Under the pieces are notes generated by a model that saw only the letters and a list, made by a program, of their open reading frames with translations, ran no database searches and had not been told where the DNA came from. Made by a program: the position numbers and the translations under genes. This document shows positions 46,210 to 56,444 of a DNA stretch of 64,000 bases, one piece after another. The number at the start of each line of letters is the position of its first letter. The first letter of the stretch is position 1. Source of the stretch: Clostridia bacterium (GTDB lineage Bacteria; Bacillota; Clostridia; Oscillospirales; QAKW01); assembly GCA_017464525.1 (NCBI GenBank), contig JAFTZM010000033.1, forward strand, positions 186,001 to 250,000, read 5' to 3'.

Positions 46210-47221
46210 GGTCTTTCATTTGAAATGCCAGCAGGCTGGCAGCAAAGGTATAGATCAGATCTTTTTTATTCAAGCCGGAGGTTTTGATCTTCTCATCCAG
46301 TTCAAGGCATCTTCTAAGCCCGTCCAAAGCCTCACCTTCCTGCATCCGTTCGGCTGTACGCATAATTCTAGCAGCAGCATAGGGGCTGATTCCGCAAACA
46401 GAGGCTAATTCTGCCGAAGAATGGCCCTCTCGCAATGCAATTTCTCCGCGCCACAGGTCGATGTATGCACGGTAAAACATCCCTGCAATAACAGTCTCAT
46501 CTACATTTTGCCGGTACAGTGTCTGCAAAGCTTGCATTAAGAGATCAAAATCATGCTCTGCAATGGCATTGGAAATGGCAAACCAGGAGGAGTCCTCTTC
46601 AGGGGCCACCATTTTATCGATCAAGGCCCGATCAATCTCTCCGCCTTGTACAAAGGAAAGCAATTTATGAAGCTCATTGCTCAAACGAAGCATAGAGCCG
46701 CCAGTTACTTCAATCAAATATGCCGAGGTGCGGTCATCGATCATTCCGTTCTCCTTGGCAACGATTTTACGCACCCAAGGGATAAGGGCTTCCGGCTTAG
46801 GCCGGTCGGCCCGCACAATTTCACCGCCCAATTTTTTTACAGCGGATTCAATGGCATTACTTTTAGACTTTTCCCGAGCGTGTTCCCAAATTAAAACCGT
46901 AACGCCCGGAGCAATATCGGCCAAAGCAGCGGAAAACTTCTTTTCATTAGTTCCCTTAAAGGCGCCGGTCTCCAGATCTGCGACTGTTACTAGCTTCTTC
47001 TCAGCCATCACCGGATAGGAGGTGCAGGCATCTGCCAAATAATCATAATCGATCTTCTTACCGTCGATTTCGATCAAATTAAATTCAGGCAATATATCGG
47101 AGCAACATTCTTTAAATTGCTTATAATAATGATCCAGCAAATACTGCTCGTCCCCCGCCATATAATATAAAGAAGCAAGATTTTTTTCCTGCAGCTGTTT
47201 TTTTAGGGCTTCAATTGTCAT
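46202..47221 (-). CDS. holA: DNA polymerase III delta subunit
   Basis: 339 aa. Clamp-loader subunit that opens the beta clamp. Recognised from the N-terminal LYYMAGDEQYLLDHYYKQF, VTVADLETG, WVRKIVAKENGMIDDRTSAY-type helical region, and a C-terminal helical domain. The ATG overlaps the comEC stop by 4 bases, the usual comEC-holA linkage. Confidence 0.92.
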   Translation of the reverse strand: MTIEALKKQLQEKNLASLYYMAGDEQYLLDHYYKQFKECCSDILPEFNLIEIDGKKIDYDYLADACTSYPVMAEKKLVTVADLETGAFKGTNEKKFSAALADIAPGVTVLIWEHAREKSKSNAIESAVKKLGGEIVRADRPKPEALIPWVRKIVAKENGMIDDRTSAYLIEVTGGSMLRLSNELHKLLSFVQGGEIDRALIDKMVAPEEDSSWFAISNAIAEHDFDLLMQALQTLYRQNVDETVIAGMFYRAYIDLWRGEIALREGHSSAELASVCGISPYAAARIMRTAERMQEGEALDGLRRCLELDEKIKTSGLNKKDLIYTFAASLLAFQMKDHE

Positions 47222-49509
47222 GATATGATCCTTTCCAGGGTGGTTCCGTTTGATTTAAAAATAATATTACCGTCAGAGGTTTTAAGTATCCGGGCGCTGA
47301 TAGTCTCCAACCGGTCGATCACACTTGCGCTGGGATGACCGTATGAATTTTCGCCGACAGATATCACGGCAATTTCAGGAGAAGCGGCTTTCAAGAAGGG
47401 ATACAGGGAGGAAGAATCACTTCCGTGATGAGCCACTTTAAGTATAGTGCAATTCAACTCATAATTCAATAGTTTTATTTCGGCGTCCCCTTCCAGATCA
47501 CCGGTCACCAAAACCGATGTATCACCATAGCACACATGGTAACAAATACACCGCTCATTGCGGTTTGCGAGGGTCTCATCGAAAGCGGCAGCTGTAATCA
47601 ATGAAACTGAAACATCATCCAGCACGCTAATCGTTTCATCGCCGGATATAATACGATTCTTTTCAGATTGGATCAAGGTCAGCAGCTCCGCGGTTTCAAA
47701 TTCAAATTCCGGATATAAAATTTGGTCCACATATACATTGCGAAGCAGAGTACGCAGACCGTTGGTATGATCGCTGTGCAGATGGGTAAACGCCAGAAGC
47801 TCCACAACATAAATGTTTTTCTTCTGCAGATAATCGATCAGGTTATAACGTTTCTCGGACGATCCGCCGTAATCAAAGATCACCGCACGGTTGTCTTTAG
47901 ATATCACAGTACATTCCCCCTGCCCCACATCAATAAAAGCAATTTCCACCGAATCATCCGGATGCGCCGTTTTATAAATTAAGCCAAAGGTACCGCTAAA
48001 GCACAGCAACATTAAAAATAATGCTATAAAACTACGGCGTTGATGCCGAATGAAATCATAAATCGCCACGCCGGTAATCGCAATGAACAACACCAAAATG
48101 ATAATACCTTGAAGATTAAAGCCGGTTACGCTGGAATAGGGAAATCTTCCAATAAGATCTGAAATCAAATCAATAATATCATACAAAAAATCACAGATAA
48201 AGCCGATGGCAGCGCCGATACCGGGGATCCAACCAAGCATAACCATCATCATTCCCAGCATAAAAACAGCCTGAAGAGGATAAATCAAAATCACATTTGC
48301 CAGCGGCCCGATCAAGCTGACTGTTTTAAAAACAGAAATCACGATAGGCAAGGTAGCAAGTGTTGCTGCAATGGAACAGGCAAAAATACCGGTAAACTTA
48401 CGGTATACAGAATTGATATGGTGATTCTTTCCAACTTTTTTAGGAAATAAAAAGGTTTCGATCGGCGAACGCAGAAGAATGATTCCGGCGGTGGCAAAAA
48501 CACTCAGAAGAAAACCCACGTCTCGAATGGCAAGCGGATTAAATACAACGATCAAAAAAGCGGCAACAGATAAGGAGGTGAGTCCATCCGGGAATAAATT
48601 CAACGCCATTCCTAAGGATAAAATGGAAAGCATGATGCAGGCACGGACGCAGGACAAGGGAAACCAAACGATCGCTGTAAAGAAAACCGCGACAAAAATA
48701 TTCACAATATGGCGGATCCGGTAATGAATTCCCAAAAGAGCCAGAAGAGAGCTGAACAACAGCACAGTAAAGGTCAGATGCAGACCGCTTACGGATGTAA
48801 CATGAGAAAGACCGATACGTCGCAGGGAAACATTCAACCTAGAATCCAAAGATTCGGTATCGCCGAAGCAAACCGAGCGCATTAAACCAATGGTATCTGT
48901 ATCACCAAAGCACAACCGGTTCTGTATAGCGTTACGAAATTCATAAAAAATATGATAATAATTCTCCTTTTGTGCCTCGCTGAAGAAGGTGGAAGCATTG
49001 GAACTAAAGGAGCTGATAAAGACCCGGTCTTCCCTGCCTCCGCCGAATTCGATGGCGGTATCAAAAAATTCCAAAGTACCCTGAAAGCCGGCACCGGGAG
49101 AATATTCGCTTTCCGTATCACTATATAAATAAACATAGAATTGATGATAAAAGGGCAGTTTTTTACCATTGATCGCCGTAAGCTTTATTTGATAGCGAGA
49201 CAGATTTCCGGCTGCATTTGTACCAAGATCTGTAACAATTCCGCTGATCTCGGCAGATCGGCCGACCAATTCAGTCTGCGTCTTTTGGGCAGGAAGCTGA
49301 GAGACCGTAAAGAAAATAACTGCCGCAACTAAGGCTGCCTGGCAAGGAAGAATCAATTTTTTAAGCGAAAAACGGATAAAAGCAACAGGAATCATCAAAG
49401 CCAGGACGACAACTGCTATTCCGGCGGCCAACTCAAAGGAGAGAAAGGAGCACAAAAGAATGGTAAAATAGAATGTGGCCAAAGTCCACATCAAATACCG
49501 CTTTAACAT
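47218..49509 (-). CDS. comEC: DNA internalization channel ComEC/Rec2
   Basis: 763 aa. N-terminal membrane helices, a soluble OB-like DUF4131 region (about 70-180), the Competence membrane domain (IGLSHVTSVSGLHLTF, then about eight spans to residue 500) and a C-terminal metallo-beta-lactamase domain (VGQGECTVI, FTHLHSDHTNG). All three modules are intact, so DNA uptake is possible. No comEA or comE regulatory gene is adjacent. Confidence 0.95.
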   Translation of the reverse strand: MLKRYLMWTLATFYFTILLCSFLSFELAAGIAVVVLALMIPVAFIRFSLKKLILPCQAALVAAVIFFTVSQLPAQKTQTELVGRSAEISGIVTDLGTNAAGNLSRYQIKLTAINGKKLPFYHQFYVYLYSDTESEYSPGAGFQGTLEFFDTAIEFGGGREDRVFISSFSSNASTFFSEAQKENYYHIFYEFRNAIQNRLCFGDTDTIGLMRSVCFGDTESLDSRLNVSLRRIGLSHVTSVSGLHLTFTVLLFSSLLALLGIHYRIRHIVNIFVAVFFTAIVWFPLSCVRACIMLSILSLGMALNLFPDGLTSLSVAAFLIVVFNPLAIRDVGFLLSVFATAGIILLRSPIETFLFPKKVGKNHHINSVYRKFTGIFACSIAATLATLPIVISVFKTVSLIGPLANVILIYPLQAVFMLGMMMVMLGWIPGIGAAIGFICDFLYDIIDLISDLIGRFPYSSVTGFNLQGIIILVLFIAITGVAIYDFIRHQRRSFIALFLMLLCFSGTFGLIYKTAHPDDSVEIAFIDVGQGECTVISKDNRAVIFDYGGSSEKRYNLIDYLQKKNIYVVELLAFTHLHSDHTNGLRTLLRNVYVDQILYPEFEFETAELLTLIQSEKNRIISGDETISVLDDVSVSLITAAAFDETLANRNERCICYHVCYGDTSVLVTGDLEGDAEIKLLNYELNCTILKVAHHGSDSSSLYPFLKAASPEIAVISVGENSYGHPSASVIDRLETISARILKTSDGNIIFKSNGTTLERIIS

Positions 49510-49530
49510 ACGCTCACCTCTTTGGAATCA

Positions 49531-49559
49531 ATTATACGACAAAAGCAGCTAAAAGTCAA
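49531..49559 (-). promoter_or_regulatory. SigA promoter of comEC-holA
   Basis: On the minus strand, TTGACT (49559-49554), 17-bp spacer, TATAAT (49536-49531), followed by AGAGGTGAG and the comEC ATG. Confidence 0.72.
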
Positions 49560-49560
49560 A

Positions 49561-49600
49561 AATAATACCGAAGAAATCCTAGGATTTCTTCGGTATTATT
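49561..49600. terminator. 40-bp perfect palindrome, probable terminator
   Basis: Bases 49561-49580 are the exact reverse complement of 49581-49600, with no loop. It ends the spoIVA/small-ORF transcript and touches the small-ORF stop codon; the comEC promoter begins 2 bases beyond. Confidence 0.8.
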
Positions 49601-49755
49601 CACTTATTATCGGGTTTTTCTTCGGTTTGCGCCGAAAAATTCCGGGCGATCTCTTCCAATTCATTCCGTGTATTGAAGGTAACGCCGGATTGGAGGATAT
49701 CCTCCCGCAGCCACTTAGGCAGTGTATCAAAAAATGCTTGTGCTTCACTATTCAT
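49600..49755 (-). CDS. 51-residue hypothetical protein downstream of spoIVA
   Basis: A small ORF (49755 to stop at 49602-49600) with ATG preceded by AGAGGTGAG at good spacing. The protein starts MNSEAQAFFDTLPKWL, contains a likely amphipathic helix (WLREDILQSG), a second helix (NELEEIARNF) and an acidic/polar tail. I do not recognise it. It follows spoIVA by 33 bases on the same strand and ends at the transcript terminator, so it should be expressed with spoIVA in the mother cell (inference). Good start signals and amino acid composition argue that it is real. Confidence 0.65.
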   Translation of the reverse strand: MNSEAQAFFDTLPKWLREDILQSGVTFNTRNELEEIARNFSAQTEEKPDNK

Positions 49756-49788
49756 TTAACTCACCTCTTGGGTAAGTATGCACCGCCT

Positions 49789-51267
49789 TTACAGAATTAT
49801 GCAGATCAAGCCCGCGCTTCCCTCATTGATAATCCTGGAAAGTGTTTCCTGCAGCTTAAAGCGAGAATCATCAGGCATTCTGGATAGTTTATTATGTAAA
49901 CCTTCATTCACCAGATCATGTACAGATTTCCCGAAAATATTAGACTCCCAAATTTTGGATGGATCCTCCTCAAAATCCTTGAGCAGATATTCGATCAGCT
50001 CCTCCGATTGCTTTTCGCTGCCTACAATGGGAGAGATCTCGGTGCAGATATTAGCCTGAATAATGTGATAAGAAGGCGCTTCCGCAGCCAGCTTTACCCC
50101 AAAACGGCCGCCCTGTTTAAAGATCTGCGGTTCCCCAAGGCTCATTTCTTCCAAGGTGGGAAATACGATTCCGTAGCCCTTTGATTGTGCCTCAGCAAAT
50201 GCGTCCTTGATCTTTTCATACTCCATCTTTGCAGCAGAAAGCTCTTTGATCAGGGCAACCAGATCACCGTCGTTTTCAATGGGCATTCCGGCAGATTCAC
50301 TTAAAATGCTGTAATATAATTCCGGTTTCAGCTCGATTTTCAGGCCGGCACTTCCCTCACCCAAATTCACATTCTCGATCTCACATCGGGAAAGCTGCTC
50401 TTCACCGGAAAGATCCAGTACCATTTTTTTAACGGTGCGGACCCGGTCGATCTGCTTTGCACTTTCCAGAATACTGGAATATACTTCCTTTTTCAGCCAA
50501 TGATCCTTTTCCAGACCACCGACCCAAGCGGGAAGATCGATGAAGATCTCTTTAATGGGAAACTCCAGTAAAACGGTCTGAATGATGGAAAGGATCTTCT
50601 CCCGGTCCAGCTCCAGGCAATTTACGGTCATAACGGGAACATCATATTGCTGCATCAGCCGATCCCGCAGTTCTCTGGCACTGTCGCTATCCGGAAACAT
50701 GGAATTCACCAGCACTGCAAAGGGCTTATCAATGGCTTTCAGTTCACGGATGATCCGTTCCTCGGCACGGGCGTAATCATCCCGTGAAATTTCGCCGATA
50801 CTGCCATCGGTCGTTACCACAAGGCCGATGGTCGAATGCTCACAGATCACCTTTCTGGTACCCATTTCTGCCGCTTGCTGAAACTCTAATTTATCCTCGC
50901 TCCAGGGAGTTTCCACCATGCGGGCTTCCCCGTTTTCAGTCTGCCCCATGGCACCGTCCACAACATAGCCCACGCAATCGATCAGCCGAACATTAAATCG
51001 GGTATGATCCTCCATGACGATCTCGGCCGCTTCATCGGGGATAAACTTCGGTTCTGTTGTCATAATGGTTTTTCCGGCGGCAGATTGGGGAAGTTCATCG
51101 ATCGCACGCTCCCTTTTATGCTCATTGGCAATATTGGGAATGACCAGATTCTCCATAAACTTCTTGATAAATGTTGATTTTCCGGTACGAACCGGCCCTA
51201 CAACCCCGATATAAATATCACCGCCGGTACGGGTTGCAATGTCCTGATAAATGCTTGTTTTGGTCAT
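49789..51267 (-). CDS. spoIVA: Stage IV sporulation protein A
   Basis: Coat basement-layer ATPase that polymerises around the forespore. 492 aa from ATG 51267, exactly the Bacillus length. N-terminal VGPVRTGKSTFIKKF (Walker A), a sensor-like TIGLVVTTDGSIG segment, and a C-terminal VGSEKQSEELIEYLLKDFEE region. The chosen start aligns with the family N-terminus (DIATRTGGDIYIG) and is preceded by GGAGG; an in-frame ATG at 51285 overlaps that site. Preceded by a long inverted repeat. Confidence 0.96.
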   Translation of the reverse strand: MTKTSIYQDIATRTGGDIYIGVVGPVRTGKSTFIKKFMENLVIPNIANEHKRERAIDELPQSAAGKTIMTTEPKFIPDEAAEIVMEDHTRFNVRLIDCVGYVVDGAMGQTENGEARMVETPWSEDKLEFQQAAEMGTRKVICEHSTIGLVVTTDGSIGEISRDDYARAEERIIRELKAIDKPFAVLVNSMFPDSDSARELRDRLMQQYDVPVMTVNCLELDREKILSIIQTVLLEFPIKEIFIDLPAWVGGLEKDHWLKKEVYSSILESAKQIDRVRTVKKMVLDLSGEEQLSRCEIENVNLGEGSAGLKIELKPELYYSILSESAGMPIENDGDLVALIKELSAAKMEYEKIKDAFAEAQSKGYGIVFPTLEEMSLGEPQIFKQGGRFGVKLAAEAPSYHIIQANICTEISPIVGSEKQSEELIEYLLKDFEEDPSKIWESNIFGKSVHDLVNEGLHNKLSRMPDDSRFKLQETLSRIINEGSAGLICIIL

Positions 51268-51270
51268 AAT

Positions 51271-51326
51271 GCGGGAAACCTCCATACTTCCATACTCGTT
51301 TGTATATGGATATGAAGGTTTCCTGC
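51271..51326 (-). repeat. Inverted repeat covering the spoIVA ribosome binding site
   Basis: Minus-strand GCAGGAAACCTTCATA (51326-51311) can pair with TATGGAGGTTTCCCGC (51286-51271): 15 of 16 positions pair, loop of 24. The GGAGG of spoIVA lies in the 3' arm. CATAATTT and CATATCC/CATATACA in or near the 5' arm could instead be SigE promoter elements. Confidence 0.55.
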
Positions 51327-51334
51327 AAATTATG

Positions 51335-52207
51335 TTATTTTAATTCAGAACGTTTTGGAATGGAGCAAGCAGCCCCGGGCCGTGATACGGTAATCGCTGC
51401 GGCATCGGTTGCAAGCCGCAATGCTTCGGCAGGCTCTGCCCCCTCCAATAAGGATGCAAAGAAATAACCGGTAAAGGTGTCACCTGCAGCAGTCGTATCC
51501 ACCGCAGTAACCTTTCTGGCAGCCTCAAAAACATGATCGTTGCCATTTCCAAAGCAGGCGCCCTCGCCTCCCAAGGTCAGCACCACCTCTGCTTTGGGAA
51601 AACGGCGGTACATTTCATCTAAGATCTCAATGGCATCTTTCTTTCCGGTGATTTCGAAGCCTTCGATCTCATTCATAATGAAGTAATCCACCAAAGAAAG
51701 ATCGCTTTGCAGGATCTCCGGGCCGATGGGAGAGGGATTTAAAACAATTTTCAGCCCTGCTTCGGAAGCATACTGTAACAACGCGGGCAGACCGGCAATT
51801 TCATTTTGAAACAAAACAAAATCCCCCTCTTCAAAATCTGCAAATACCTGCCTCATATAATCTTCAGTCACCGATGCATTTGCACCTCCACAGATGAGGA
51901 TGCAATTTTGCCCCTGCGAATTCACTTGAATCATGGCATGACCGGTGGGAACCTCCCCCACCTTCAGCCACTTGGTATTGACACCATCCGCTTCCAACAG
52001 TTCCTTCAGGAAAATTCCATCCTCCCCGATCTGACCGGCGTGATAGACCTCAGCACCGGCACGGGCCAATGCAATGGACTGGTTTGTTCCTTTTCCGCCG
52101 GCATTCTTTTGATAGCCGGTTGAGGCAAGAGTCTCACCGGGGGTCACAAAATGCGGAACCTGATATACGTGATCAATATTTAAAGAACCAAAATTCAGTA
52201 TTTTCAT
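51335..52207 (-). CDS. rbsK: Ribokinase-like PfkB family carbohydrate kinase
   Basis: 290 aa. PfkB signature KNAGGKGTNQSIALARAG near residue 40 and VDTTAAGDTFTGYFFASL with the catalytic Asp near residue 240. The ribokinase branch is the best fit (GSLNIDHVYQV start, NPSPIGPE, NEIEG). It overlaps the nucleoside hydrolase stop by 4 bases, so it probably phosphorylates the ribose released by that enzyme. Confidence 0.88.
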   Translation of the reverse strand: MKILNFGSLNIDHVYQVPHFVTPGETLASTGYQKNAGGKGTNQSIALARAGAEVYHAGQIGEDGIFLKELLEADGVNTKWLKVGEVPTGHAMIQVNSQGQNCILICGGANASVTEDYMRQVFADFEEGDFVLFQNEIAGLPALLQYASEAGLKIVLNPSPIGPEILQSDLSLVDYFIMNEIEGFEITGKKDAIEILDEMYRRFPKAEVVLTLGGEGACFGNGNDHVFEAARKVTAVDTTAAGDTFTGYFFASLLEGAEPAEALRLATDAAAITVSRPGAACSIPKRSELK

Positions 52208-53118
52208 GCTTCTTGCTCCACCAACCTTTTGATCAGATCTTCCATCAGCTTTGCTTTATTGATATTATTCACATATGCGCAAAGCTGGCCGGGAGCCTCC
52301 TTATCATAGCATCCTTCATAGTTCGGCAAAAGGATAGGCTTGATCTTATAGGTGAAAAATTTACCGGTCAGCCAGGAAACGGCGGTTACATCCCAGATCA
52401 CCTTTGTCCATGAAATACACTTTGGATTCTTATAGTGATCCATCACATTGCGAGCCAGATAATCAGCCAGAGGATTCTTCCCAATAAACCATTCATTCAG
52501 TTCGGGCTCAGAAACAGAAAAGTTATCCACAACACCCATGCATGGAAATTGAACCACCGGCACACCGGAGGAGAAAACAACCCGGGCAGCAGCAATATCC
52601 TGCACCATATTGAATTCCTTGGTATCGCGCCAATCGTGGGAATGCCCTCCCAACCAGACCACAACGCATTTTTCTGCCATAGACGGATTGATCAGCAATG
52701 CAGAAGCCACATTCGTGATGGCGCCGATGACAATAACATAAAGAGGATCATCGGCAGAATATTCATCAGCTAACTCAGCCAGATGACGGGCAGCGGGAGA
52801 TTCTACAGCAGTATTTTCATCGAGCAGATAGGTTTTACTGCCCTTAAAAACAAGATCCTTCATATCGTTACGGCCGCAAAGATCTAAAACCTTCAGGATC
52901 TCAGCGTAGCTTTTTTCCATACCGTCTTCCGGAGAAGAAGAGTTCTTGTTATAGAAGGGTGCGGCATAGATGGCACGGGTACGGATCCGATCGTTGCTGC
53001 GCACCATATAGGCCAGCGCAAACTGGTCGTCGATCTCATTATAGGTATCTGTATCCAATACAGCATCGTGCATCCCTTCGGGCAGTTCTAAATTATTAAG
53101 TAGTTGTTTTTCTGTCAT
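52204..53118 (-). CDS. Inosine-uridine preferring type nucleoside hydrolase
   Basis: 304 aa. Splits ribonucleosides to base and ribose. The calcium-binding Asp cluster is in LDTDTYNEIDDQFALAY; GAITNVASALL and the catalytic His region GGHSHDW are visible. Base specificity cannot be read. It follows the DUF3006 gene by 20 bases and is coupled to the ribokinase gene. Confidence 0.88.
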   Translation of the reverse strand: MTEKQLLNNLELPEGMHDAVLDTDTYNEIDDQFALAYMVRSNDRIRTRAIYAAPFYNKNSSSPEDGMEKSYAEILKVLDLCGRNDMKDLVFKGSKTYLLDENTAVESPAARHLAELADEYSADDPLYVIVIGAITNVASALLINPSMAEKCVVVWLGGHSHDWRDTKEFNMVQDIAAARVVFSSGVPVVQFPCMGVVDNFSVSEPELNEWFIGKNPLADYLARNVMDHYKNPKCISWTKVIWDVTAVSWLTGKFFTYKIKPILLPNYEGCYDKEAPGQLCAYVNNINKAKLMEDLIKRLVEQEA

Positions 53119-53138: not shown

Positions 53139-53351
53139 TTATTGAAATAATTCATCGATCAGGCTCTTGGCCTCCATACGGCGCGAAGCAGTTTCTTCCG
53201 AATTATAGGAATAGGAAGATCCGTCAAAATTCAGAATGTCCCCTTCTTTAACGCCATCGGGCAGGTTGCTGCGCAGTACATTGACCGCATTTCCATCCCC
53301 GTCAACCAGTATCGCCCAATCCTTTTCAAATCGATCGACTCCGTAAAGCAT
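53139..53351 (-). CDS. DUF3006 domain protein
   Basis: 70 aa. Matches the DUF3006 pattern: VDRFEKDWAILVDGDG, then LPDGVKEGDIL and a YNSEETASRRMEAKSLIDELF helix. ATG overlaps the stop of the metallo-hydrolase (TAATG), and GGAGGG precedes it. DUF3006 genes are often placed beside ComEC-type metallo-hydrolases; function unknown. The start at 53369 would lie inside the neighbour. Confidence 0.8.
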   Translation of the reverse strand: MLYGVDRFEKDWAILVDGDGNAVNVLRSNLPDGVKEGDILNFDGSSYSYNSEETASRRMEAKSLIDELFQ

Positions 53352-54232
53352 TATTTTCCCTCCGTACATTGAATTGTTTTACCATCCGTTGTAACGGTGA
53401 TCGTGCCTTGGGTATCTGTTCTGTATATCTCAACTTGCTGTTTTTCCAGCCTTTTCAACGCTTCATCATGGGGATGGCCATAGGAATTATCCTCCCCGCA
53501 GGAAATAATACCGATCTCAGGAGCCACCGCCTGCAAAAAAGCCTTAGAGGAAGAACCGCTGCTGCCATGATGCCCCACCTTTAAAACAGTACTTTCTAGG
53601 GTGTCTCCATAGTATGCCACCAGATCCTTTTCCGCAGAAGATTCCTGATCACCGGTAAATAAGAAGGAGATCTCCCCGATTTGCCCACGCAAAATGACCG
53701 ATTGATCGTTCAGATCCTCATAATCTTCCACCGGACCGAGGACGTTGAAGGTAACAGCTCCGCATTCAAAGGAATCGTTTACCTCCACAGCGTGAACGGT
53801 TTTCCCCTGCTCCTTGATCTTTTTAAGCAAATTCAAATAAACGGAGGTCGTGGGCTCGGTTCCTTCTGTGGGCCTTTTCATATAAATATTTTCAACATCA
53901 AAGGATTCCAGAACCGCAATGGCTCCGCCGATATGATCCTCATGAGGATGGGTCAGCAAAAAATGATCGATCTTTTTAATGCCCCGTTCCTCCAGATGAT
54001 CCACCACCTTTTCCCCATCCTCCCGGGTGGACGCATCGATCAGGGTCGTAACCCCATTTGAAACGATCAGGGAGCTATCCCCCTGCCCACAATCGATAAA
54101 ATCAACATAGCAATCACCCTCCGGGCCTTTATTGAACAAATCCGTATTTGCTTTCAGGTAAGATACGATCCCAACAACAAAAATGATAATACCGATTATC
54201 TTAACAAGATCCTTTTTCTTTCTTCTCGCCAT
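53351..54232 (-). CDS. Stand-alone ComEC-type metallo-beta-lactamase-fold hydrolase
   Basis: 293 aa. A basic N-terminus and one hydrophobic segment (about 9-28) would anchor or export it; the rest is the MBL domain as found at the C-terminus of ComEC: FIDCGQGDSSLI, THPHEDHIGG (metal ligands), TGDQESSAEKDL, and HHGSSGSSSKAF. No channel domain is present. Likely acts outside the membrane on nucleic acid or another phosphodiester; substrate unknown. First gene of the DUF3006-nucleoside hydrolase-ribokinase run. Confidence 0.88.
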   Translation of the reverse strand: MARRKKKDLVKIIGIIIFVVGIVSYLKANTDLFNKGPEGDCYVDFIDCGQGDSSLIVSNGVTTLIDASTREDGEKVVDHLEERGIKKIDHFLLTHPHEDHIGGAIAVLESFDVENIYMKRPTEGTEPTTSVYLNLLKKIKEQGKTVHAVEVNDSFECGAVTFNVLGPVEDYEDLNDQSVILRGQIGEISFLFTGDQESSAEKDLVAYYGDTLESTVLKVGHHGSSGSSSKAFLQAVAPEIGIISCGEDNSYGHPHDEALKRLEKQQVEIYRTDTQGTITVTTDGKTIQCTEGK

Positions 54233-54297
54233 AGTACCACCTCTTCTAAAATATTATCATATTCAGAAGGAAATTTGAAGTGTTTTTGCAAAATTAA

Positions 54298-54326
54298 ATG
54301 ATCCGCAGAAAAAATCTGCGGATCAT
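54298..54326 (-). terminator. Terminator after the ClpP-like gene
   Basis: 12-bp perfect stem (54298-54309 with 54315-54326) ending 2 bases from the ClpP-like stop, with a moderately T-rich tail on the minus strand. Confidence 0.7.
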
Positions 54327-54328
54327 CA

Positions 54329-54895
54329 TTACCCGATGATCTGATCGATCAAGCCATATTCCTTCGCTTCTTCGGCATAAAGCCAATGCTTACGCTCCAG
54401 ATCGGCACGGATCTGTTCCTCAGAACGGCCGCAAAGGGAGGCGATCAGCTTATTGATCCGATTTTTAGCCTTTAAAAGATGCTCGGTTTCCAGTTCAATA
54501 TCAGAGGCCTGACCGAAGGTACGGTCACGGCCCACCTGCATCAGCATGATCTCTGCATTGGCATAAGCCTTACGCTTTCCTTTTTCACCGCCGGCAAGCA
54601 ACAGGGCAGAAAGCCCGTGGGCTTTTCCAACGCATACGGTTTCAACGGGGCAGCTGATGCTTCTCATCACATCAAAGATAGCCAGGATCTCTGTTTCACA
54701 GCCGCCGCTGGAATTGATATAAAGGGTAACGGGAGCCTCTGCATCCTCGCTTGCCAGGTACAGCAAGCTGGATACGATACTACAGGAAACCTTTTCATCA
54801 ATTTCTCCGAAGGCTAACACGGTTCTCTTCTTGAGCAGACGGGCATTCAGGGTTTCAGCACGGCCCTCTGCGGCATTAAATACAGGTTCATTCAT
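54329..54895 (-). CDS. ClpP-family protein lacking the Ser-His-Asp triad (pseudo-protease)
   Basis: 188 aa with clear ClpP core features: LYINSSGG (usually INSPGG), IFDVMRSI, GQASDIELE and AEEAKEYGLIDQI. The catalytic positions are all substituted. GQAASMGA is here GKAHGLSA, so the nucleophile Ser position is Gly94. The His of MIHQP is Met119 in IMLMQV. The Asp of TDRDxFM is Lys169 in LERKHW. It should therefore be inactive as a serine protease, like chloroplast ClpR, and may join ClpP rings as a structural or regulatory subunit, or serve some other role. ATG 54895 has AAAGGAG upstream; the longer start at 54928 is unlikely. No clpX or active clpP is adjacent. Confidence 0.85.
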   Translation of the reverse strand: MNEPVFNAAEGRAETLNARLLKKRTVLAFGEIDEKVSCSIVSSLLYLASEDAEAPVTLYINSSGGCETEILAIFDVMRSISCPVETVCVGKAHGLSALLLAGGEKGKRKAYANAEIMLMQVGRDRTFGQASDIELETEHLLKAKNRINKLIASLCGRSEEQIRADLERKHWLYAEEAKEYGLIDQIIG

Positions 54896-54944: not shown

Positions 54945-55550
54945 TCAGCCATTCACATCAGATTGAGATATATTCCGGGACAGGAAGAAGTTTCCGGTAA
55001 TCAACGCACGAAGCTGATCATCGCAAACTAAAATCACACGATCCTCTTTTTCCTTAAATGTAAGGGTAAATTCCTGGATCATGGTTTCATACTCCCCATT
55101 GATAGCCAAAGAAAGCATCATTTCCTGGGTGAGAATAACACCGTTTTGATCGTCTTCATCCAATTTTGCCTGCAGCTCTTCATTGGACATGACCATCTGA
55201 AACACCTCCGCAAGAACCGTTGAATAAAGCTGCTGCACATTCGGCATAGTAAATTCAGCAATGATCCGGTTCTTTTCACAGGACTTTATTTCATAGGTTA
55301 TATCCGAAAAAAGAATGCGATATAGGTTGATATACGGCTCATCGTTAAAGATATCATCCAGATAAACATATTCTGTTTTATCTGGAAACTCTGTTACCAG
55401 CAAGGTCATGGCATCCCGATCATACACCTTCAGTGCATTTGTGAAAAGTGTGAGTGTATCGTTCATTTTGGATTCATCTATACTTACGCTGCAGCCGGCA
55501 GAAGAAATCAGCATCACCGCCGCAATCAGGAGTAGAAAAAATCGTTTCAT
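54945..55550 (-). CDS. Probable lipoprotein of unknown function
   Basis: 201 aa. Signal peptide MKRFFLLLIAAVMLISSAGC with a lipobox-like SAGC (Cys20), then a soluble domain rich in Asp, Glu and Thr that I do not recognise. Position -3 of the lipobox is Ser, which is less common, so lipidation is likely but not certain. ATG 55550 has AAAGGAAG; the frame extends upstream to 55595 but without support. It lies 49 bases before the ClpP-like start on the same strand and may share its transcript. Confidence 0.75.
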   Translation of the reverse strand: MKRFFLLLIAAVMLISSAGCSVSIDESKMNDTLTLFTNALKVYDRDAMTLLVTEFPDKTEYVYLDDIFNDEPYINLYRILFSDITYEIKSCEKNRIIAEFTMPNVQQLYSTVLAEVFQMVMSNEELQAKLDEDDQNGVILTQEMMLSLAINGEYETMIQEFTLTFKEKEDRVILVCDDQLRALITGNFFLSRNISQSDVNG

Positions 55551-55618
55551 AGCAGGACTTCCTTTAATGATTATGATGCAAGTATAGCACACCATACGAA
55601 GTTTTTCAATAAATTTTC

Positions 55619-55673: not shown

Positions 55674-56444
55674 ATGGAAATCAACAATACCAACAATAAT
55701 GATGTCCAAAATTTCGGCGAAGAAATATGCGTAAACGTGCAAAAAATATACGATACCTGCAAGGATAAAGACTGCTTATCCGATATGCGCGTGTACTTAA
55801 GCCCCGGCGATCAGTCACTTATCGATAATGCAGTAAATATCCGAGCCAGAAAATCCGAACTGGTATGGACCTCAGTTACTCTGGAAGAGGTTCCTTTCAA
55901 CAAGGGATTTTACGGGGTAGATCTTACCTTCTATTTCAAAACCGGCTTTGAGGTTTATACCGGCAATGGACGCCCTTCTATTGTGGAAGGTCTTTCCTAC
56001 TATAATAAAAAGGTGATCCTTTACGGCAGCGAAGGAAATACCACCACATTTTCTTCCGCTTGCAGTAATAATTACAGCAACAGCAATCTGCCGGTGGCGG
56101 AGGTGGAGGTGGTAGATCCCATCGTTTTGAACACCAGGATCGTAAATCCCTCCTGCAACTGCTGCTGTTCCGAATGCGAATCCTTAAATCTGCCCAGTCG
56201 TGTTGCTGCCCTTTTCCCCGAAGAGCTGACCGATATGGCCGGCAGAAAGCTGGTGGTATCTCTCGGGTTGTTCAGCGTTGTACGGATCGTGCGGGATGTT
56301 CAGGTCAAGATCCCCTATTCCAGATTCAGCCTGCCGGAGAAGGAATGCTCCGGGCCTCGGGAGGAGGAGCCCTGCAGCTTTTTTGAAAAGCTTTGCTTCC
56401 CCACCAATGAATTCTTCCCGCCTGAAGGCGGCACTAGCTGCTGA
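55674..56444 (+). CDS. Cysteine-rich protein, probable spore-layer component
   Basis: 256 aa. No signal peptide or membrane span. The first 120 residues form a beta-rich domain containing ICVNVQKIYDTCKDKDCL and VPFNKGFYGVDLTFYFK. A cysteine cluster (CNCCCSEC, about residues 162-169) follows, then a second beta-rich region and a Cys/Pro/Glu-rich tail. Proteins of this kind occur in spore-forming Clostridia, but I know no assigned function. The AC-N16-CATANNNTA promoter, high cysteine content and convergence on no metabolic gene make a late mother-cell coat protein plausible (inference). AAGGAGG precedes the ATG. Confidence 0.7.
   Translation: MEINNTNNNDVQNFGEEICVNVQKIYDTCKDKDCLSDMRVYLSPGDQSLIDNAVNIRARKSELVWTSVTLEEVPFNKGFYGVDLTFYFKTGFEVYTGNGRPSIVEGLSYYNKKVILYGSEGNTTTFSSACSNNYSNSNLPVAEVEVVDPIVLNTRIVNPSCNCCCSECESLNLPSRVAALFPEELTDMAGRKLVVSLGLFSVVRIVRDVQVKIPYSRFSLPEKECSGPREEEPCSFFEKLCFPTNEFFPPEGGTSC

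Follow-up and report, generated by a model that had tools for sequence, protein, structure and literature searches.

In addition to the ClpP protease encoded beside clpX, the genome of this Clostridia bacterium carries a second ClpP protein that is, as judged from its sequence and those of three orthologues, a catalytically dead subunit kept by selection. The gene lies within the window (the whole stretch of 64,000 nucleotides analysed here) and runs from an ATG at position 54,895, which an AAAGGAG ribosome site precedes by 9 nt (both read directly in the sequence), to a stop codon at 54,329-54,331. Residues 12-187 of the product match the Pfam family PF00574 (CLP_protease; E = 2.2e-53, 181 bits, cut-off 20.2), and in the alignment Ser98, His123 and Asp172 of Staphylococcus aureus ClpP correspond to Gly94, Met119 and Lys169. 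The Ser-His-Asp triad of active MEROPS S14 peptidases is consequently missing, and all four orthologues are dead in this sense. The protein also scores under the cut-off of every ClpP-type NCBIfam model, including the clpP equivalog TIGR00493 (169.8 bits, cut-off 308.6) and PRK12552 (140 bits, cut-off 263), which we take to be the model for cyanobacterial ClpR.

The ClpP fold, including both the core and the handle helix, is found in an AlphaFold2 monomer model of the paralogue (pLDDT 92.7, pTM 0.87), which lies within 0.8-1.7 Å rmsd of solved ClpP structures over 173-187 residues (Z about 30; Foldseek and superposition). The underlying alignment of 47 sequences is rich in active ClpPs, and the model is thus a statement of fold compatibility more than an independent discovery of the fold; prediction from the four orthologous sequences alone gave a pLDDT of 54.7, and that model was set aside. 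Superposition on the solved ClpPs indicates that the register of the alignment is right and that the triad is not displaced within it. The substitutions at the three triad sites of an otherwise recognisable ClpP scaffold, as given in a preliminary description of this DNA, are therefore borne out.

The four orthologues are all full length with intact frames, and their divergence is that of a protein under strong purifying selection. Pairwise dN is 0.24-0.33, while four-fold degenerate sites differ by 50-65% and dS is at least 1.7 where computable (dN and the four-fold differences were used to assess selection, dS not being estimable for some pairs). Across the four proteins 92 of the 188 residues are invariant. 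At the triad sites the replacements of Ser by Gly and of Asp by Lys are themselves invariant, and the former His position is occupied by Met, Met, Asn and Thr. Around the former cleft the family has acquired a set of new, invariant residues (E67, K91, H93, G94, R123, D124, R125, F127 and K169), of which R123 constitutes a one-residue insertion; E67, H93, G94 and K169 lie in or next to what was the active site, with K91 and R123-R125 in the flanking strands.

A decaying pseudogene might be suspected from the loss of the whole triad and from how fast the gene evolves, the active ClpP of these genomes being several-fold slower (dN 0.04-0.07). Set against this are the four intact frames with synonymous sites near saturation, which rule out decay or relaxed selection, together with the invariant residues, the fixed replacements and the conservation of both promoter and ribosome site. 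Decay is thus extremely improbable, and is refuted at the present sampling of four genomes; the history of the gene is, on this evidence, one of remodelling under constraint. The preliminary description had argued for a selected, non-proteolytic role over decay and had named evidence of relaxed selection across relatives as one observation that would overturn it; the comparison it proposed instead lends that role good support, through the intact orthologues, the purifying selection and the invariant replacements.

The orthologues belong to the four genomes of the genus with the highest completeness, that of the window included. Their mutual identity is 59-70%, and the three from other genomes, which include a Clostridia MAG from goat rectum (JAFSCX010000011), share 66-70% with the protein of the window. 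No further orthologue came from searching the order (394 genomes) and the class (391 genomes), where the next-best matches were active ClpPs at 41-48% identity. Two more genomes of the genus lack the paralogue, although these are only 62-64% complete and are missing the whole spoIVA region as well, so that its absence from them is no evidence of loss. A phage origin was rejected, as a pattern scan of IMG/VR found no relative, and so was a plasmid origin, the plasmid matches being below 60% identity and several of them annotated as ordinary clpP. Searches of the open literature turned up no description of a triad-less ClpP from Clostridia.

In a tree of 44 ClpPs (assembled without cyanobacterial or plastid ClpR sequences), the four dead proteins form a single clade (support 100/100), and a branch that also has 100/100 support separates all clpX-linked ClpPs from a group made up of this clade and 16 stand-alone ClpP2-type paralogues from Clostridia, all of them active. 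The tree accordingly places the paralogue in a ClpP2-type ancestry, and rules out a recent duplication of the resident clpP as its source. Its closest relatives in the tree are stand-alone ClpP2-type paralogues (L007, L055, L108 and L109), the exact nearest relative being unsure because of the long stem of the dead clade. The motifs RxILLF, GQASD and W-[LM]-[FY]-AE-[ED]-A are common to the paralogue and the ClpP2-types; the latter, however, keep the catalytic Ser and His and carry either Asp or Asn at the remaining triad site, whereas the paralogue has lost all three. Asn in place of the catalytic Asp was observed in seven active-type ClpP paralogues from other Clostridia (L040, L043, L046, L051, L055, L056 and L108), which are mostly ClpP2-type, with L056 falling outside the group.

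The window genome (2.62 Mb, 98.7% complete) contains two ClpP matches, the second being the canonical ClpP (G000:C22, L002), which is 41% identical to the paralogue over the ClpP domain. Unlike the paralogue, this protein has an intact Ser-His-Asp triad and a conserved N-terminal loop, and its gene adjoins clpX and tig. An active clpP and a clpX, for which the preliminary description had proposed a search, are thus both present, and that description was right that the paralogue gene does not precede clpX. A long distance in the genome separates the two clpP-type genes, which are not co-transcribed. Three other long frames contain a ClpB_D2-small domain and are taken, from sequence, as ClpB, a ClpC-like ATPase and Lon. 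In the ClpC-like protein (G000:C37, L111) the ClpP-docking loop appears as TGF, the usual form being [ILV]GF.

The active ClpP of the genus is itself unusual in that its QXT motif, at the tip of the handle, reads SAT instead of QAT in six of six genomes. A DNA pattern for the Ser form was found in these six and in none of the 388 other genomes of the order, and the corresponding Gln form in 120 of 394 genomes, among them 5 of the 6 genomes from the sister genera but no member of this genus; each pattern catches one motif spacing only, so the remaining genomes of the order are not all accounted for. In the paralogue the motif is QAS in all four genomes that bear it, and the two proteins therefore have complementary QXT motifs of the kind found in ClpP1P2 hetero-tetradecamer systems. 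Variation in this motif has been proposed to set the stability of the ring-ring contact, in a review which also states that the role of QXT needs validation (PMC9035409), and ClpP1 of Mycobacterium tuberculosis (SAA) is active only with ClpP2 (QFS) (PMC9035409). The reciprocal motifs of the genus pair resemble those of the M. tuberculosis pair, in which, by contrast, neither protein is triad-less and the genes form one operon, whereas here one partner is dead and the genes are unlinked; the M. tuberculosis proteins form a hetero-tetradecamer, whereas hetero-assembly in the Clostridia genus is our inference. The co-occurrence of the Gln-to-Ser change in the active ClpP with the dead paralogue is one coincidence on a single branch and not a repeated correlation, and it is regarded as a lead, since there are also families in which Lys occupies this position and no dead paralogue accompanies it. 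In the ClpPs of one family, f14 (L042, L045, L049 and L054), Lys replaces the Gln of QXT (GKV), and a search found no dead paralogue there.

Ring-ring contact in ClpP is made by the handle and ATPase contact by the N-terminal loop (PMC9035409), and the distribution of constraint over the dead family differs between these regions. The handle is the best-conserved stretch of the paralogue across the four orthologues, with 17 of the 18 columns of the handle window invariant, and over its residues 119-145 the dead proteins have a mean pairwise identity of 0.83, compared with 0.59 in clpX-linked ClpPs and 0.63 in active ClpP2-types. The N-terminus (residues 1-18) shows the reverse, with values of 0.46, 0.87 and 0.70, respectively. 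In a circular-shift test the handle ranks of the dead family and of the clpX-linked ClpPs differ with P = 0.03, and the handle of the dead family tested against the rest of the protein gives P = 0.09, which is not significant. Residues of the ring interface (Q129, D132, E167 and R168) are retained, and in the H-pocket, where the ATPase docks, Y59 and L45 are kept and positions 25, 76 and 111 are changed. Taken together, these observations are suggestive, if not overwhelming, of a shift of constraint in the dead family towards the ring-ring handle and away from the ATPase-facing N-terminus.

The arrangement of genes around the paralogue (Table 1) follows the order lipoprotein, dead ClpP, MBL, DUF3006 and then spoIVA in all four genomes. 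The shared sigma-A-type promoter and the hairpin after the dead ClpP make the lipoprotein gene and the paralogue look like one housekeeping unit. A comparable hairpin follows the paralogue gene in G002 and G003 and is absent from G004, and it is thus present in three of the four genomes. Among the neighbours named in the preliminary description, the lipoprotein, MBL and DUF3006 genes recur in each of the four genomes, but the nucleoside hydrolase occurs in that of the window only. The hairpin before the MBL gene and the lack of conservation of the hydrolase leave little neighbourhood support for the 'new complex' that had been suggested, and a single conserved operon from the lipoprotein to the nucleoside hydrolase was rejected on the same two grounds. 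Sporulation-specific expression through the nearby spoIVA was likewise not supported, the promoter being of sigma-A type in all four genomes.

Table 1. Positions in the window of the paralogue, its segments and the surrounding genes and signals.
Feature	Positions	Strand	Remarks
Triad-less ClpP paralogue, 188 aa	54329..54895	-	Pfam match, alignment, AlphaFold2 model
Handle region, residues 119-137 (MQVGRDRTFGQASDIELET)	54485..54541	-	One-residue insertion; invariant R-D-R-T-F; QXT motif is QAS
Oligomerisation-sensor segment, E167-R168-K169-H170	54386..54397	-	Sensor E and R retained; adjoining catalytic Asp replaced by invariant Lys
Terminator-like hairpin directly 3' of the paralogue	54297..54327	-	13-bp stem, -21.6 kcal/mol
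Lipoprotein gene upstream of the paralogue	54945..55550	-	49 bp gap, probably co-transcribed
Sigma-A-type promoter, TTGAAA-N17-TATACT, TG before -10	55581..55609	-	Kept in 4/4 genomes; predicted to drive lipoprotein and paralogue
MBL-fold protein (ComEC C-terminal-like)	53351..54232	-	Adjoins paralogue in 4/4 genomes
DUF3006 protein	53139..53369	-	Overlaps end of MBL gene; kept in 4/4 genomes
Nucleoside hydrolase and PfkB	51335..53118	-	Both between DUF3006 and spoIVA in this genome; PfkB without the hydrolase in G004; neither in G002 or G003
spoIVA	49789..51285	-	Downstream of block in 4/4 genomes; context, no partner claim
spoIVA and ComEC-like gene	47218..51285	-	Adjacency common to genus and sister genus
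256-aa protein (u256)	55674..56444	+	No significant Pfam or NCBIfam match

The reading that we prefer, and to which we would give an even chance, is that the paralogue is an independently evolved, ClpR-like, non-catalytic subunit that pairs with the active ClpP. The protein would fold as a ClpP protomer and probably form a heptameric ring, which would either stack through its handle on the catalytic ring of the clpX-linked ClpP or have its protomers mixed into that ring, giving a hetero-tetradecamer with fewer active sites. The QAS motif and the sensor residues E167 and R168 would support a ring interface that the active ClpP, with its SAT motif, would be expected to hold less well alone, and the Clp ATPases would bind the active ring only, as suggested by the eroded N-terminal loop of the paralogue. 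What we infer from these features is that the paralogue forms rings, that it pairs with the active ClpP and that this affects ClpP activity. Counted against hetero-pairing are the wide separation and lack of co-transcription of the two genes and the fact that strong conservation of the handle is equally expected of a homo-tetradecamer. The alternative to be weighed most carefully, although we consider it unlikely, is that the paralogue assembles with itself into a non-proteolytic ring or barrel that serves some separate function (as a scaffold, or in binding peptides or proteins) and acts without the active ClpP. Stacking of like rings would suit the conserved handle no less than stacking of unlike ones, the N-terminus on the ATPase-facing side is eroded, the gene sits with the lipoprotein, MBL and DUF3006 genes and not with clpX, and the protein descends from or beside stand-alone ClpP2-types that are unlinked to clpX. 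Such a ring would nevertheless leave unexplained why the QXT motif of the active ClpP has changed in this very genus, and the neighbouring lipoprotein and SpoIVA exist in the sister genus without the paralogue.

A role built on the old cleft itself, rebuilt as a new ligand-binding or catalytic site from E67, K91, H93, R123, D124, R125 and K169, would account for replacements that all four orthologues share despite their divergence and that active ClpPs seldom or never show. The same residues could equally form structural salt bridges that hold the handle after loss of the triad, the old His position is variable, and we know of no homologue with an activity of this sort, so that a rebuilt site appears improbable. 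To a hetero-complex in which the paralogue acts as an inhibitor or decoy, poisoning or tuning the active ClpP by sub-stoichiometric mixing without being needed for activity, the evidence for hetero-pairing applies equally, and a conserved sigma-A promoter of its own, separate from clpP-clpX, would suit it; the QXT change in the active ClpP, however, suggests adaptation to a partner and not avoidance of one, and we consider this reading slightly less probable still.

The paired, non-catalytic subunit that we favour invites comparison with ClpR, which has been described in cyanobacteria, plastids and apicoplasts (PMC7966870; PMC4673316). As in the ClpR systems, a ClpP fold without the triad coexists with an active ClpP in the same genome. 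The differences are the Clostridia lineage and likely separate origin from ClpP2-type paralogues, the absence of an adjacent second clpP and the one-residue insertion in the handle; moreover, ClpP3/R of Synechococcus is a measured mixed ring (PMC4673316), whereas the Clostridia paralogue is known from its sequence and a monomer model. The analogy with plastid ClpR drawn in the preliminary description is supported as a mode of working, in view of the shifted constraint on the handle and the Gln-to-Ser change in the partner, but not as membership of the ClpR family, the tree (without ClpR rows) indicating a ClpP2-type origin. More specifically, and only tentatively, the genus may possess an asymmetric Clp protease, independent of the cyanobacterial and plastid one, in which the catalytic ring, its handle motif weakened to SAT, needs the dead QAS ring to stack and become active. 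If this were so, a pseudo-enzyme would be a required part of the protease, with ClpX or ClpC docking on one face only. The presence in Clostridia of another dead ClpP, apparently of independent origin, offers an uncomplicated system of two genes for studying what makes cells retain a dead protease subunit. As the active ClpP of the genus carries Ser for Gln beside a Gln-bearing dead paralogue, the proposed role of QXT becomes directly testable, poor assembly of the active ClpP alone and good assembly with the paralogue being expected.

The surroundings of the locus afford some further observations. In the sister genus (g2), the lipoprotein and u256 genes occur at one locus and spoIVA-comEC at another, and no ClpP paralogue is present. 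No spoIVA was found in G001, G005, G007 and G009, which are 60-85% complete. Conservation of the u256 protein is 75-79% within the genus but 58-59% between it and the sister genus, and a sigma-K-like promoter (AC-N16/17-CATANNNT) precedes its gene in all four genomes of the genus; it is perhaps a late mother-cell spore protein.
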